A stretch of 64,000 nt of DNA. Origin: Terriglobia bacterium. Lineage in GTDB: Bacteria > Acidobacteriota > Terriglobia > Bryobacterales > Bryobacteraceae. The translations under genes were made by a program, and so were the position numbers. The notes beneath the pieces are model-generated. The model was not told the origin of the DNA and did no database searches. It saw nothing but the letters and a program-made list of their open reading frames with translations. The stretch is taken from positions 1-64,000 of the forward strand of contig JAIQFI010000015.1 in NCBI GenBank assembly GCA_020073345.1, in the 5' to 3' direction. Shown here one piece after another: positions 44,460 through 48,391 of the stretch; within the stretch, counting starts at the first letter, position 1, and each line of letters begins with the position of its first letter.

Positions 44460-44490
44460 GGATATTTCGGAATTATGCACTTGACATACC
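44460..44490. repeat. Left target duplication and left inverted repeat of the transposon
   Basis: GGATATTT (44460-44467) is the 8-bp target duplication, and 44468-44490, starting CGGAATTATGCACTTGACAT, is the 23-bp left inverted repeat. It is identical to the reverse complement of 48361-48383. The repeat includes a TTGACA -35 box used by the transposase promoter. Confidence 0.93.
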
Positions 44491-44509
44491 CAGAGAAAAC
44501 CCTTAAGAT
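44481..44509 (+). promoter_or_regulatory. Transposase promoter with -35 box in the inverted repeat
   Basis: TTGACA (44481-44486), a 17-bp spacer and TAAGAT (44504-44509) form a near-consensus sigma-70 promoter. The expected start of transcription is at or within a few bases of the transposase ATG (44516), and no Shine-Dalgarno can fit between, so the message is probably leaderless. Confidence 0.7.
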
Positions 44510-44515
44510 TGAAGC

Positions 44516-45490
44516 ATGTCTGGGTTACTCGCTCCGCAATTCCAAAACGATGAGGCCGCAAGGAAGCACTTAGAGGCGACTCTTTGGCCGGATGGCCCGG
44601 TCTGTCCGCATTGCGGCATCATCGGCGAAGCCTACCTGATGAAGGGCGAAACCACCAGGGATGGCCTGTACAAGTGCTCCGCGTGCCGTGAGCCGTTCAC
44701 GGTGACCATTGGGACGATCTTCGAGGACTCACACATTCCGCTTCACAAGTGGCTGTTTGCGATCCACCTGATGTGCTCATCGAAGAAGGGGATTAGTGCT
44801 CACCAGCTTTGGCGCAACCTGTGGGGCGTCAATCCCGACACAGGCAAGCCGAACGGGTCCTACCGCTCCGCGTGGTTTATGGCGCACCGCATTCGCTGGG
44901 CGCTAGGCAAGGAACCAGTTGCCAGCAAGCTATCCGGCATCGTTGAAATTGACGAAGCGTACATCGGTGGAAAGTTCCGCCACGCTGGAAGCTACACGCC
45001 GAAACCGGGCGAGCGTCCGAAGGATCGCCCGTCTCCGACCGCGAACAAAGCTCCGGTCCTGTCCATCCTTCAGCGTGACGGCGAAGTGCGCTCCATGCAC
45101 ATGCCGCGCGTCACGGCGGATACATTAAAGCCGGTCATCGAAGCGATGGTAGATAAGTCCGCGCACATGATGACCGACAGCGCATCGGCGCTGCGAGGGG
45201 CACCAATGGGCTACAAGCAGAGCAAGGTGAATCACAGCGCGAAGGAATACGTCAGGCACGAAGACGGCGTGTGCATCACGACCAACACGGTCGAAGGATA
45301 CTTCTCGATCCTGAAGCGCGGTAACTACGGCGTCTATCACCACTGGGGCCAACAGTACACCGATCAGTACCTACGCGAGTTCGACTTCCGGTACAACATC
45401 CGCAAGCTGAACGACGACGCGCGGGCTACGGTCGCCTTGAAGAAAACCAAGGGGCGGCGGCTAGTCCTGAAGGCACCAAAGGGATCATGA
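44516..45490 (+). CDS. IS1595-family (ISXO2-like) transposase
   Basis: The 324-residue protein has an N-terminal zinc ribbon with Cys30, 33, 54 and 57 (CPHCG...CSAC), followed by a helix-turn-helix-like region (LHKWLFAIHLMCSSKKGISAHQLWRNL). The DDE-type catalytic core has Asp146 in VEIDEAYIGGKFRH, Asp221 in MMTDSASAL, and the third residue in NTVEGYFSILKRGNYGVYHH (Asn257 or Glu260). The HH-containing block and YLREFDFRYNIRKL ending are family hallmarks. It is full length with no frameshift, so it is probably active. It lies 25 bp from the left inverted repeat. Confidence 0.96.
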   Translation: MSGLLAPQFQNDEAARKHLEATLWPDGPVCPHCGIIGEAYLMKGETTRDGLYKCSACREPFTVTIGTIFEDSHIPLHKWLFAIHLMCSSKKGISAHQLWRNLWGVNPDTGKPNGSYRSAWFMAHRIRWALGKEPVASKLSGIVEIDEAYIGGKFRHAGSYTPKPGERPKDRPSPTANKAPVLSILQRDGEVRSMHMPRVTADTLKPVIEAMVDKSAHMMTDSASALRGAPMGYKQSKVNHSAKEYVRHEDGVCITTNTVEGYFSILKRGNYGVYHHWGQQYTDQYLREFDFRYNIRKLNDDARATVALKKTKGRRLVLKAPKGS

Positions 45491-45616
45491 TTTGTGGCAC
45501 AAATTGATCTCTAGTCGCTACTGGAGATAACGTCGTTGCTCCATACGGATAATTTCATGCTATAGTCGGTTTAGTAGGCTTTCGTCAGGTAGTTGGAAGA
45601 GGAACTTTCTGAGTAG

Positions 45617-45688
45617 GGGTGACTGGGACCCGCTCCGAAAGGAAAACCCCGGTTAGTGGCCGGGGCTTCCAAATCTATCGGGCGGAAG
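45617..45688 (+). promoter_or_regulatory. Structured leader with three stem-loops before the 42-residue ORF
   Basis: Hairpins are GGGT/ACCC (45617-45631), CCCCGG/CCGGGG with a 7-base loop (45647-45665), and CTTCC/GGAAG (45666-45688). The last one takes in the first bases of the Shine-Dalgarno (GGAAGGAGGTGA, 45684-45695). A TATAGT -10-like box at 45561-45566 could start a leader of about 130 bases. This could be a translational switch or a small structured RNA. I see no match to a known riboswitch. Confidence 0.4.
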
Positions 45689-45701
45689 GAGGTGAGGCCC
45701 G

Positions 45702-45830
45702 ATGAGGGTTGTTCACCCACCTACTATGCAGGGTTACAAGCCGCCTTCTGGCTATCGGATCGTTACGGTCCGCCAACTGGAAGACGGTACGTATGAAGTT
45801 ATGTTGGAACCTTTAGCTTGGTATCTCTAG
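45702..45830 (+). CDS. 42-residue microprotein inside the transposon
   Basis: ATG 45702 is preceded by a very strong AAGGAGGTGAGG ribosome site. The product is MRVVHPPTMQGYKPPSGYRI plus VTVRQLEDGTYEVMLEPLAWYL: a Pro-rich start and a beta-hairpin-like end, soluble, with no known motif. The strong initiation signal, hairpin leader and terminator right after it argue for a real gene. Too short for family assignment. Confidence 0.55.
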   Translation: MRVVHPPTMQGYKPPSGYRIVTVRQLEDGTYEVMLEPLAWYL

Positions 45831-45854
45831 AGCCAAAGTCCAGCTAACTTCAGG

Positions 45855-45900
45855 CCGGGGGATTAGCTCCTAACTAGTCCCTCGGTTGCTTTGATTTTAA
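45855..45900 (+). terminator. Intrinsic terminator after the 42-residue ORF
   Basis: A 12-bp stem (45855-45866 with 45874-45885, two G-T pairs) closes a 7-base loop and is followed by the T-rich TTGCTTTGATTTT. It isolates the small ORF from the HARE-HTH gene. Confidence 0.65.
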
Positions 45901-45945
45901 TGTATATCGTTACGATGTTGTCAACGGTAAAAGAGAGGTATGTCA

Positions 45946-46377
45946 ATGGTTCTAAACAAGCTACAGGAAGCATTAGCCGAGATCGGAATGCAGCGCAAGG
46001 CTCTAGACCGCGTTGAAAACCAGTTAAAGTCAATGATTTCAGAGCTTTCAGGGATTCCTGATATTGCTTCTCCGGTCTCTAGGTCCTACCCGACACCGTC
46101 TGCGGCCATGCCGGTAGTATTCCGAGAAGGGAATCGAGATAAGCTCGATGATATTGCTGATGTGCTCCGAGCGGCGGGAGGGCCGCTACATATCACGGCT
46201 ATCGCAGAGGGACTATCTAAGCTCACCAGCAAGAAGGTAGATAGGACCTCGATTGAACCGGGGCTCAATCGGCACGTGGCGACGGTGAAAGCTCGCAGGA
46301 TTGAAAAGTTTGGCCCGAGCACCTTCGGACTCCCGGAATGGAAGTCGCAGCAGCCTACGCTCGCTCATATCGCATAA
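45946..46377 (+). CDS. HARE-HTH (winged-helix) domain protein
   Basis: The second ATG (45946) is the better start: GAGAGG lies 7 bases before it, against 1 for ATG 45940. The 143-residue product has an N-terminal coiled coil (about 1-35, LNKLQEALAEIGMQRKALDRVENQLKSM), a linker, and a C-terminal winged helix (about 65-135). The wing region has LDDIADVLRAAGGPLHITAIAEGLSKLTSKK and ending FGPSTFGLPEW, matching the HARE-HTH pattern found in RNA polymerase delta subunit and in DNA-modification proteins. It likely binds DNA. Its stop is 13 bases before the tRNA gene. Confidence 0.7.
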   Translation: MVLNKLQEALAEIGMQRKALDRVENQLKSMISELSGIPDIASPVSRSYPTPSAAMPVVFREGNRDKLDDIADVLRAAGGPLHITAIAEGLSKLTSKKVDRTSIEPGLNRHVATVKARRIEKFGPSTFGLPEWKSQQPTLAHIA

Positions 46378-46390
46378 GACAATTGAGCGA

Positions 46391-46468
46391 GCGGGAGTGG
46401 CGGAACTGGCAGACGCAACCGGCTTGGAGTCGGTATGCTTACGGGTTCGATCCCCGTCTCCCGCACCA
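46391..46468 (+). tRNA. Atypical tRNA with UGG (Pro) anticodon on a Leu-like body, CCA encoded
   Basis: A full cloverleaf folds: acceptor GCGGGAG/CTCCCGC, D-arm with 3-bp stem GCG/CGC and loop GAACTGGCAGA, anticodon stem ACCGG/TCGGT, loop CTTGGAG, 6-base variable loop ATGCTT, T-arm ACGGG-TTCGATC-CCCGT, discriminator A and encoded CCA. T33 precedes anticodon TGG, which reads proline CCA codons. However, the 5' half (acceptor and D-arm) is of the kind seen in leucine tRNAs, A37 is unusual for proline tRNAs, and the long variable arm of leucine tRNAs is missing. It is carried in the transposon, 13 bp after the HARE-HTH gene. Confidence 0.82.
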
Positions 46469-46547
46469 AAATAGAGGGAAACTAAGGCACTTACACCTTT
46501 TCTTCGCCATGCGTGTCAAGCATTTTATTCACTGTGTATGCAATGAC

Positions 46548-46576
46548 TTGCATGAAAACTAGAGATCGCGTATAGT
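46548..46576 (+). promoter_or_regulatory. Sigma-70 promoter for the three-gene passenger operon
   Basis: TTGCAT (46548-46553), a 17-bp spacer and TATAGT (46571-46576) lie 130 bp before the first gene of the run. A leader of about 120 bases would follow, A+T-rich and without an evident strong hairpin. Confidence 0.55.
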
Positions 46577-46705
46577 GAAGGAGTAGTAGTCAGTTACTAG
46601 TTATCCCGTGCTTCGTTGTTTCTTTTTCCTCATTCCCCTAGCATTCTGAACTGTAAGGCTACTTGTCCTTGATCTGTAATATTTAAGAGCAGGTCCAATA
46701 GGGGA

Positions 46706-47083
46706 ATGATGAACGATAAGCCGAAAGTTCAGTTTCACTACAACAAGAGTAACTTGTTCCGTGTGATTCATGCCGATGGAGCGTGGGGCGGCCTAACACC
46801 GGACTTGAACCTCTTCGTCGGTTTTTATAGCCAGCGCCCGCCCATTCCCAACATGACTGTGCAGCCCTTGATGGACGATGGCACGCTCGGCGAGGAAATA
46901 CGCGAGGCCAAAATATCCAAGGCTGGAATCGTTCGGGAAATGGAAGCCGGTATTGTGCTCAGCGAGAGTACGGTCGATAGCCTCATTGAATGGCTTCAGC
47001 AGCAGAAGAAAAACATCGTCGATATAAAACAGAAGAAAGGTCTTAGTGACCCCAGAACTACCACTCATCCTACTGTTAGCTAA
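46706..47083 (+). CDS. Unknown passenger protein A (DUF3467-like at best)
   Basis: This 125-residue soluble protein starts at ATG 46706 or 46709 after AGGGGA. It reads as a small alpha/beta domain: a strand-rich first half (KVQFHYNKSNLFRVIHADGAWGGLTPDLNLFVGFYSQRPPIP) and a helical end (LSESTVDSLIEWLQQQKKNIVDI). The arrangement is loosely like DUF3467 proteins, but I am not sure. The gene overlaps the next by 38 bp, so the products are probably made together. Codon use is less G+C-rich than the chromosome. Confidence 0.6.
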   Translation: MMNDKPKVQFHYNKSNLFRVIHADGAWGGLTPDLNLFVGFYSQRPPIPNMTVQPLMDDGTLGEEIREAKISKAGIVREMEAGIVLSESTVDSLIEWLQQQKKNIVDIKQKKGLSDPRTTTHPTVS

Positions 47084-47594
47084 ATCTATGGCAGCCACTG
47101 CATCAACACGAAAATCCCGCGATGAAGTTTTCTCTATCGATATAGCGGAATCCTATGGTGCTGCCCCGCACGTGCTCCGGATTGATGCGATTCAGTATTG
47201 GAACGAATCCACGGCTGCCGGAGCTGATGGAATCATTAAACAGCTTCAGGATCTTCGTAATAATCAAGAACGATTTGACGAGGACGAGCCCCGTCCCGCT
47301 GACGGCGCCTTCGATGCGATTAGGGACATACTGCGAGGGGCCGAAGGAAAGCACGCAAAGTTGCCACGAGCCGAAGTATCCGCATTTTATGGTGAACTTG
47401 CCGTCACTTGGCGTATCGAGAACCGGACACTGCGTCTAGTCTCGTACTCCGATGGTAGACAGCCGCTCTTGTATTTTCACACCGATACCGCAGAGGCCCT
47501 TTCTCGCGGAGAAACCATCTGCCCAGCCACTGCCGATATCCTTAAAGAGCGAATTTCTTGGCTAGGTGGTGAGTTGGCGTTTATGGCTAGCTGA
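47046..47594 (+). CDS. Unknown passenger protein B
   Basis: GTG 47046 (with AAAGG upstream) gives 182 residues; ATG 47088 (MAATASTRKSRDE) is an alternative. There is no signal peptide. The centre is acidic and helical (LQDLRNNQERFDEDEPRPADGAFDAIRDILRG), and the C-terminal half is strand-rich (YGELAVTWRIENRTLRLVSYSDGRQPLLYFHTDT) with an ending ILKERISWLGGEL. No catalytic motif stands out. It overlaps gene A and is followed 15 bp later by gene C. The tight packing suggests a complex of A, B and C, possibly a defence or addiction module (inference). Confidence 0.6.
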   Translation: MTPELPLILLLAKSMAATASTRKSRDEVFSIDIAESYGAAPHVLRIDAIQYWNESTAAGADGIIKQLQDLRNNQERFDEDEPRPADGAFDAIRDILRGAEGKHAKLPRAEVSAFYGELAVTWRIENRTLRLVSYSDGRQPLLYFHTDTAEALSRGETICPATADILKERISWLGGELAFMAS

Positions 47595-47609
47595 CGCTAG
47601 CGTGGCCCA

Positions 47610-48038
47610 ATGCCGCTACCTCCTCACACAGAGGTATATCGCGCACTTCTTAGGGACTCCAAGCCTAGCATCGACAATTTCCGCCTTCGACCACAAACTG
47701 AAAAACGGCCCGCTGAAGATAGTCTCTCGATTGCGCTAACCGAGTTAAAGGCTCGCGACTATCTGAATTGCAAGGGCTATGCAGTCTTAACCGTGGAGGG
47801 AATCGAAGCCATTCAGGGACTCACTGTTCAGCAGAAGAGACAGGAACTTCAGCCTGATCCAAACAATCCAGATGAAGAACTTCTAGAGGTCATGGGATTG
47901 CCTCTTGCAGCGGATGATCCAACCAGGATACTTGATATCGCGCAAGCGTTGATCAGGGCGGTTGTTCGATCTGAATCGTTCCCAAAGCCCATAAAGCTTG
48001 AGCCTCCCGAACAAGAGATCCCGGCTGTCCAGGGCTAG
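47610..48038 (+). CDS. Unknown passenger protein C
   Basis: This 142-residue soluble protein is mostly helical, starting MPLPPHTEVYRALLRDSKPS, with a middle ALTELKARDYLNCKGYAVLTVEGIEAI that could be a winged-helix-like strand pair, and a Pro/Glu-rich tail. No Shine-Dalgarno is clear before ATG 47610, which fits translation coupled to gene B. No family recognised. It is the last gene of the three-gene run. Confidence 0.55.
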   Translation: MPLPPHTEVYRALLRDSKPSIDNFRLRPQTEKRPAEDSLSIALTELKARDYLNCKGYAVLTVEGIEAIQGLTVQQKRQELQPDPNNPDEELLEVMGLPLAADDPTRILDIAQALIRAVVRSESFPKPIKLEPPEQEIPAVQG

Positions 48039-48072
48039 CTATTGATCGGGAATCGGGAGTAAACTGCTAATC

Positions 48073-48234
48073 GTGGCAAAACCCGCAACTAACATCCGCA
48101 TTCCGCTCCGCACGGACGAAGCCATCGCGCTCATCGCGCGCGTTAAGCCCGACGCCACGATGCCCCGGCCAGGGGCACAAGCGACGAAGGCGAAGCCGAA
48201 AGCGAAGCGCGGTAAGAGGCAACCCCGTGCATGA
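48073..48234 (+). CDS. 53-residue basic microprotein
   Basis: GTG 48073 starts a frame reading VAKPATNIRIPLRTDEAIAL, then IARVKPDATMPRPGAQ, and ending in a Lys/Arg/Ala-rich tail. The first half looks like the beta-helix start of small ribbon-helix-helix or arc-like proteins, with the MPRPGA linker and basic tail of nucleic-acid binders. The ribosome site is weak (GGGAG, about 15 bases upstream). It overlaps the next microprotein by 8 bp. G+C is higher than in the rest of the cargo, so it may have a different origin. Confidence 0.45.
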   Translation: MAKPATNIRIPLRTDEAIALIARVKPDATMPRPGAQATKAKPKAKRGKRQPRA

Positions 48235-48313
48235 CTACGGCGTGCAGGAACTCATCGTCCTCTTCGTGCTTTTCCTGGTCGTATTCGGACGACGACTGAA
48301 CAAACGCCCATAG
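48227..48313 (+). CDS. 28-residue TatA-like membrane microprotein
   Basis: From GTG 48227 the product reads VHDYGVQELIVLFVLFLVVF and then GRRLNKRP. A short N-terminus, a Gln-Glu-Leu before one membrane helix, and a Phe-Gly hinge followed by a basic stretch match the start of TatA/E proteins, without the amphipathic helix that normally follows. It starts inside the upstream ORF, so it may be translationally coupled. Too small for certainty; it could be a TatA mimic, a membrane-active toxin or chance. Confidence 0.4.
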   Translation: MHDYGVQELIVLFVLFLVVFGRRLNKRP

Positions 48314-48360
48314 TCTGAAAACTCCGGCCTGCCACGCACTTACGGTAGCCCGCCCATCAG

Positions 48361-48391
48361 GGTATGTCAAGTGCATAATTCCGGGATATTT
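48361..48391. repeat. Right inverted repeat and right target duplication of the transposon
   Basis: 48361-48383, starting GGTATGTCAAGTGCATAATT, is the exact reverse complement of 44468-44490, and GGATATTT (48384-48391) repeats the left flank. The pre-insertion site would read from the cold shock promoter straight into the lipoprotein leader at 48392. Confidence 0.93.

Follow-up and report, generated by a model that had tools for sequence, protein, structure and literature searches.

A transposon-borne three-gene cassette with relatives in several phyla: a candidate toxin-antitoxin-like system in a Terriglobia bacterium

What are three small, closely spaced genes of no evident family, here called A, B and C, doing inside a mobile element of a Terriglobia bacterium? 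The window, that is, the whole stretch of 64,000 nucleotides analysed here (from contig JAIQFI010000015.1), had been described in an earlier note, which proposed that the three genes formed a module with its own promoter on a transposon, and that this module was the best candidate there for an undescribed system, of the defence, addiction or host-manipulation kind. We found the module to be real, mobile and not ordinary, while its function is something that we infer.

The placement on a transposon was borne out, and the element could be delimited (Table 1). Its transposase matched PF12762 (4.6e-32, 111.6 bits; cut-off 27), PF12760 (1.2e-13) and NF033547 (2.8e-48, 164.6 bits; cut-off 75), its terminal inverted repeats are perfect, and it is flanked by two copies of GGATATTT. 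The element thereby combines the features of the IS1595 family, namely an ISXO2-type DDE transposase, terminal inverted repeats and a target duplication of 8 bp, the usual length in this family. It is present as a single copy, with one full-length match within its own 6.2-Mb genome, the remaining 15 matches being its own two ends pairing with each other and fragments of 21-36 bases. Passenger genes in IS1595 elements have already been discussed in print. Here, the HARE-HTH-like ORF forms a second cargo type within the same element and is directly followed by a tRNA gene in which the CCA is encoded, and whose body we take to resemble that of a tRNA-Leu minus the variable arm. A terminator-like stem of 14 pairs (45853-45887) separates the transposase gene from the passengers; stems of this kind occur in the element at chance level (four found versus 4.0 expected).

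Table 1. Coordinates, within the window, of the transposon and the features that it carries
Feature	Position	Strand	Basis
IS1595-family transposon, 3,916 bp	44468..48383		transposase, inverted ends and target duplication
Left copy of 8-bp target duplication	44460..44467		sequence
Right copy of 8-bp target duplication	48384..48391		sequence
Left 24-bp terminal inverted repeat	44468..44491	+	perfect reverse complement of 48360-48383
Right 24-bp terminal inverted repeat	48360..48383	-	inverted-repeat search
IS1595-family transposase, 324 aa	44516..45490	+	Pfam and NCBIfam
Passenger ORF, weak HARE-HTH (winged-helix) resemblance	45940..46377	+	PF05066, E 0.019, below cut-off
tRNA gene, called tRNA-Pro(TGG)	46391..46468	+	ARAGORN; RF00005, 51.1 bits, E 3.2e-9
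Predicted RNA hairpin, 3' arm (46699-46713) covering the A start codon	46626..46713	+	inverted repeat and folding
Gene A, 125 aa, common first gene of three-gene cassettes	46706..47083	+	25 distinct loci; AF2 pLDDT 86.5
Gene B, 182 aa, GTG start, proposed inhibitor	47046..47594	+	C-terminal domain related to PDC-M32A end
Gene C, 142 aa, proposed effector	47610..48038	+	related to family following B

The three open frames begin where the earlier note had placed them (46706, 47046 and 47610) and do overlap or nearly touch, with 38 nt shared by A and B and a gap of 15 nt between B and C. As two small co-oriented neighbours, B and C have the gene arrangement of type II toxin-antitoxin loci. Because homologues of all three exist elsewhere, A, B and C are real genes and not chance frames. 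What had been called a good promoter did not hold up: TTGCAT-N17-TATAGT is present at 46548-46576, but its first hexamer agrees with the sigma-70 consensus at 3/6 positions, and a scan of the element that required at least 4/6 in each hexamer returned two sites versus 2.5 expected, with the 46548 site absent from the list. This promoter is no better than chance and was discarded as evidence. The predicted hairpin over the A start codon had a folding z of -2.49, with 3/200 shuffles equally stable, and could prevent expression of the cassette from transcripts that run into the element wherever it newly inserts.

Profile searches of Pfam, NCBIfam, PADLOC and PHROGs returned nothing over cut-off for window A, B or C, hence no direct match to a known toxin-antitoxin or defence model, and no match to a housekeeping family. 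Weak rows for GvpK, GDPD, a rhamnosidase and Cas7fv, each covering short stretches, were discarded. Searches of PDB sequences gave no credible relative for A, B, C, the TIGR04255 proteins introduced below or three payload proteins. A DUF3467-like resemblance had been suggested for A. DUF3467 proteins are similar in size to A and could be aligned to it over 97 columns in a plausible register, but the resemblance was not significant, with no match of A to PF11950 in Pfam up to E 5 and a profile-profile probability of 9.4%. DUF3467 was found in 20/21 relatives searched and is thus ordinary genome content there. A second, divergent DUF3467 gene in the genome of the window (L105, G000 C54:53500-60500) lies directly after an HTH-regulator-like gene, a position that recalls an antitoxin setting.

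The AF2 model of A comprised five strands and a long helix (pLDDT 86.5, pTM 0.55), for which Foldseek returned no match at E up to 0.001. VIA-align listed COMM proteins (Z 5.0), Pur-alpha (3.8), PC4 (3.4) and Whirly (3.0), all within the range below Z 8 that the tool itself calls uninformative. SecB had no row among the structural matches listed for A by either program, and the PDB sequence search of A likewise gave no relative. For C, an AF2 model built from a 5-row alignment reached a pLDDT of 38.9, with no fold assignable, and for window B no DNA-binding domain, a frequent though not obligatory feature of type II antitoxins, was detected by Pfam. In a 12-row alignment of C, R11 and S40 were invariant and a near-invariant histidine was replaced in window C, a warning that other copies of C may be better suited to testing. 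An ADP-ribosyltransferase-like nature of C, an idea that came from motif spacing, is not claimed. Among 72,556 plasmid records searched by tblastn, neither window B, window C nor three other C proteins had a match, while A matched one record, the Methylorubrum extorquens AM1 megaplasmid, where no two-gene payload was seen by eye, and one TIGR04255 protein matched a single Mycobacterium record. Viral contigs contained no relative when searched with window C, the A profile or the typical C profile.

Taken one by one, the genes seem scattered: among 237 genomes of the same family, B was present in six, A in three and C in two, the own genome being counted each time. Their contexts contradict scatter. 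A C-family gene came after B in all 23 B loci read for context, and a TIGR04255 gene preceded B in 18 of them. These loci comprised 20 from the same family (17 places from a PDC-M32A search of 101 genomes and three from a search for homologues of window B, which also returned one of the 17) and three from Alphaproteobacteria (3/289 genomes). Many of the 23 rows had gone into building the profiles used for counting; rows independent of profile building were L035, L036, L038, L040, L041 and L108-L110 for C, and L037-L041, L044, L045, L109 and L110 for TIGR04255. One further locus, L004, was kept outside the 23 since its contig ends 441 bases past B; in it (442-2217) the B-family gene lies behind a gene for an SDH/Clp-type serine protease, and no C was recognised before the contig end. 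The C frames of L038, L040 and L050 were broken or short. The B N-termini of L032, L035 and L050 look ribbon-helix-helix antitoxin-like by weak matches, specifically to ParD (0.024) for the B of L003, which is the same place as L050, and to EndoAI (0.14) and CopG (0.52), behind an unrelated best row, for that of L035, while L032 was included by its resemblance to L035.

The pair has a counterpart among listed defence candidates. With PADLOC, PDC-M32A was matched (E up to 0.1) by 6/11 B proteins, a typical B giving the lowest value of 1.3e-12 over model residues 262-351, and 2/12 C proteins weakly matched PDC-M32B (0.0063 and 0.017). Three TIGR04255 proteins compared with PDC-M32A gave no match, and window B and C matched neither model up to E 5. 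It is profile-profile comparison that bridges this gap and ties window B and C to the PDC-M32-like family. Probabilities for C were 91% between the window type and the typical type, 58% between the typical and L060 types, and 0.3% between the window and L060 types; the corresponding values for B were 66%, 96% and 36%, and all 15 unlike pairs (B-C, B-A and C-A) fell below 1%. Judging from these profile likenesses, B-C is a divergent branch related to PDC-M32, a listed but uncharacterised candidate, and hence is not wholly undescribed. PDC-M32 has been annotated in Sinorhizobium prophages (PMC12429752), and PDCs are guilt-by-embedding candidates, mostly unvalidated (PMC12988326). Our literature search found no paper on TIGR04255 or DUF7689, the latter a family that appears below.

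These likenesses invite a reading as an anti-phage system that is not of the toxin-antitoxin kind, in which B and C would act together, as sensor and effector subunits, against nucleic acid or protein of the phage, with recognition left to an interchangeable subunit, either A or TIGR04255. Such a system would account for the resemblance of B-C to PDC-M32, for the prophage annotations (PMC12429752), and for TIGR04255 taking the position before B in 18/23 loci, meaning that the front subunit is exchangeable. We nevertheless regard it as quite unlikely, given that PDCs are, by the account cited (PMC12988326), mostly unvalidated, that a shared regulator would explain the unrelated pairs found behind A (see below) more easily than a recognition subunit would, and that no defence neighbours were noticed at the loci read, albeit by unsystematic inspection.

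A scan with a three-row A alignment across one genome per species (84,980 species) identified 15 loci, in Planctomycetales, several Acidobacteriota, Alphaproteobacteria (Roseomonas and Alsobacter), Chthoniobacterales, Zipacnadia, Myxococcales and unplaced Proteobacteria. A 16-row A profile applied to whole genomes found A in 7/396 genomes of the phylum, own included, in 2/270 Alphaproteobacteria, both loci being already known, and in 3/169 of the Myxococcales phylum, one of which was already known. After removal of duplicates (L054 = L064, L055 = L073, L114 = L063, and G634/G636 = L068/L071), 25 distinct A loci were read, including the window and the Methylorubrum plasmid, and in 19 of these A headed a three-gene operon.

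The two genes behind A belonged to several classes. B-C followed in seven loci from several phyla (the window, L060, L062, L064, L069, L081 and L082). A conserved partner protein of 155-217 aa together with a DUF7689 protein followed in six (L059, L065, L066, L067, L071 and L072); the assignment was made by PF24738 for L065 (8.8e-38) and by blastp to L065 for the other five. By eye, the DUF7689 proteins (YNCIAWAAG...) have conserved C and H residues that suggest a hydrolase. A third gene that is tentatively HicA-like was present in three loci, by a Pfam HicA match below cut-off in L073 (0.029) and by eye, with no NCBIfam match, in L084 and L085; the L073 and L085 proteins did not match each other in blastp. 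The third gene of L061 was weakly HEPN-like (PADLOC PDC-M49B 0.0027, HEPN 0.0091; no Pfam or NCBIfam match). L083 had a pair of a DUF5678-like (0.0049) and a retropepsin-like protein (PF13975, over cut-off), and L115 an unclassified pair, papain-like by eye, with no database match. The remaining six loci (L056, L063, L068, L070, L086 and L116) had no two-gene payload after A.

In an all-versus-all blastp of 18 cassettes, in which L084 was not included, second genes matched second genes and third genes matched third genes, always within a class, and the downstream pair therefore moves as a unit. In this set window C had no match at E 0.01. The types of L060 and L062 did not match each other either, and their placement in the B-C class therefore rests on the profile-profile comparison. 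On the A tree, payload classes required nine changes among 19 payload loci, in a topology that was weakly resolved (4/22 inner branches well supported); when 'none' was included as a label, 13 changes were needed versus a mean of 15.3 after label shuffling, with values as low in 16/200 shuffles, so that clustering by class exceeded the shuffled level only slightly. This pattern fits frequent exchange of pairs without measuring it.

A, B and C are thus not an obligate trio, as A precedes exchangeable pairs and B-C usually follow TIGR04255 instead. The three-gene module of the earlier note stands in the sense that A-B-C occur together in 7/25 A loci and C follows B in 23/23 B loci. That note had also named what would undo its proposal, namely homologues scattered and never together, or matches to housekeeping families; the same two counts and the profile searches speak for neither. 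As to its being undescribed, the novelty lies in A, which forms an unnamed family of its own, and in the pairs exchanged behind it, while B-C are related to the listed candidate PDC-M32. Neither the A family nor a cassette headed by A turned up in our literature search, which was for the most part directed at other terms and covered published papers, few of them from subscription journals.

Carriers of a second transposase family were also recognised. In L062, A-B-C lie inside a 2,445-bp IS1-family element with both ends visible, a transposase matching NF033558 (108 bits; cut-off 100), 13-bp ends that agree at 12 positions and an 8-bp duplication, AATTTTCC. These ends were recognised by reading the flanks and then located, a scripted search having missed them. 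The end motif derived from L062 was afterwards sought in 21 A loci and was near the cassette in five. Downstream of the payload, at a distance of 48-121 bp, the motif was exact in L071 (which has a DUF7689 pair) and, in two copies, in L085 (HicA-like), and had two mismatches in L082 (B-C); in L061 it preceded A, again with two mismatches. The hits in these four loci are after the fact, and three further loci gave none. By letter shuffling of one locus, the chance level was 0.04 per 10 kb at two mismatches and none at zero or one, and distant two-mismatch matches in L062, L070, L071 and L073 were set aside. A transposase fragment before A in L064 resembled the L062 transposase over 36 residues (28% identity), and in L072 an IS1595 transposase lay divergently upstream of A, with no ends seen enclosing the cassette. 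At eight further A cassettes and a B-C locus, nine regions in all, no enclosing inverted repeats were recognised, nor was a carrier at the remaining A loci. In L082 (2661-4905) and L064 (377-2400), which belong to separate genomes, A-B-C lie just upstream of a gene that by eye is rpsL-like, perhaps a common insertion site.

The adjacency of A cassettes to IS1 and IS1595 transposases could mean that these are accessory genes of the transposons, with A a nucleic-acid-binding helper of transposition or a regulator of the transposase and the pairs unrelated cargo. Although the weak structural rows of A include the nucleic-acid-binding folds Pur-alpha, PC4 and Whirly (Z 3.0-3.8) beside COMM (Z 5.0), values below 8 are uninformative by the tool's own note, most A loci have no recognised transposase or end near A, and the operon of A contains the pair but no transposase gene, so that we hold this explanation to be highly improbable. 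It also appears improbable that the cassette has no present function and is decaying or neutral cargo. The single copy of the element, the strong divergence of window B and C, the absence of the family histidine from window C, and the damaged or truncated C frames of L038, L040 and L050 would fit decay, but the window has all three frames intact and perfect transposon ends, and cassettes of this type stand in seven loci, one of them on an IS1 element of separate origin.

Because the gene anatomy and the relatives fit such a model, our preferred reading, which we hold tentatively and would place just short of probable, is that A-B-C form a transposon-borne, three-component cassette of a toxin-antitoxin-like kind, in which the effector is C, its inhibitor B, and the third, common component A. 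The putative effector C would be cytoplasmic and toxic, and B, encoded directly before it, is proposed as the cognate inhibitor that would neutralise it; B would pair a constant C-terminal domain with an exchangeable N-terminal part, ribbon-helix-helix DNA-binding-like in some relatives. A, which heads other two-gene pairs in 12 loci besides those with B-C, may serve many unrelated pairs; the simplest mechanism would be that it stabilises the inhibitor or keeps the complex inactive. A trigger, either phage infection or loss of the element, would then remove the hold of A, as happens with the chaperone in CmdTAC, and the benefit would lie in maintenance of the element, phage defence or both. 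Since A stands at the head of several different pairs of this sort in other bacteria, it may be what unites a bacterial family of such systems, for defence or self-maintenance, that still awaits characterisation. Several points weigh against the toxin-antitoxin-like model: window A, B and C have no direct match to a toxin-antitoxin or defence model, the HicA-like and HEPN-like labels are weak, C has no matching model or PDB relative, window C lacks the family histidine, 6/25 A loci have no two-gene payload, and the window and L060 types of C do not match directly (0.3%). The earlier suggestion of a defence or addiction system agrees with the likeness to PDC-M32 and with the HicA-like and HEPN-like pairs behind A, themselves weak matches; the function it names is one that we infer.

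A broader version of the toxin-antitoxin-like model is conceivable, though on the unlikely side. A would be the hub of an undescribed tripartite, polymorphic class, set before effector and inhibitor pairs as unlike as B-C, the DUF7689, HEPN-like and HicA-like pairs and the aspartic protease one, and serving as trigger, chaperone or sensor, with pairs exchanged behind it and IS1- and IS1595-type elements carrying the cassettes between phyla. If true, orphan PDC-M32-like, DUF7689 and HicA/HEPN-like pairs would be linked through a common first gene, the genes behind A would offer a handle for finding more such pairs, transposons of very small size would emerge as carriers of three-gene cassettes for defence or addiction, and what the third gene does in tripartite toxin-antitoxin systems could be tested with a protein not recognisably SecB.

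Among known systems, PDC-M32 is comparable in that 6/11 B proteins match the end of PDC-M32A and 2/12 C proteins weakly match PDC-M32B, in the same gene order, whereas window B and C match neither model and their front position is taken by A, which is unrelated to TIGR04255. In CmdTAC, the antitoxin is shielded by a chaperone until a capsid protein of the phage lures the chaperone away (PMC11618068). The resemblance lies in a single operon of three small genes, presumably cytoplasmic in the window too, in which an effector and its inhibitor, both putative in the window, are joined by another component. In the window cassette, by contrast, A comes first and has no detected relationship to SecB, the type of chaperone that toxin-antitoxin-chaperone systems have as third gene. 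Tn3-family transposons carry exchanged toxin-antitoxin pairs as cargo, HEPN pairs among them, by the account in PMC7157771, and so resemble the A cassettes in bearing exchangeable pairs on transposons, while the A cassettes differ in their IS1595 and IS1 carriers, their conserved extra first gene and their own operon. Finally, Panacea (DUF4065) is presented in PMC8832971 as an antitoxin domain with many toxin partners, and, like A, it is one conserved small protein beside many unrelated effectors; the shared protein of PanAT is, on that description, the antitoxin of a two-gene pair, whereas A precedes pairs that are already complete.
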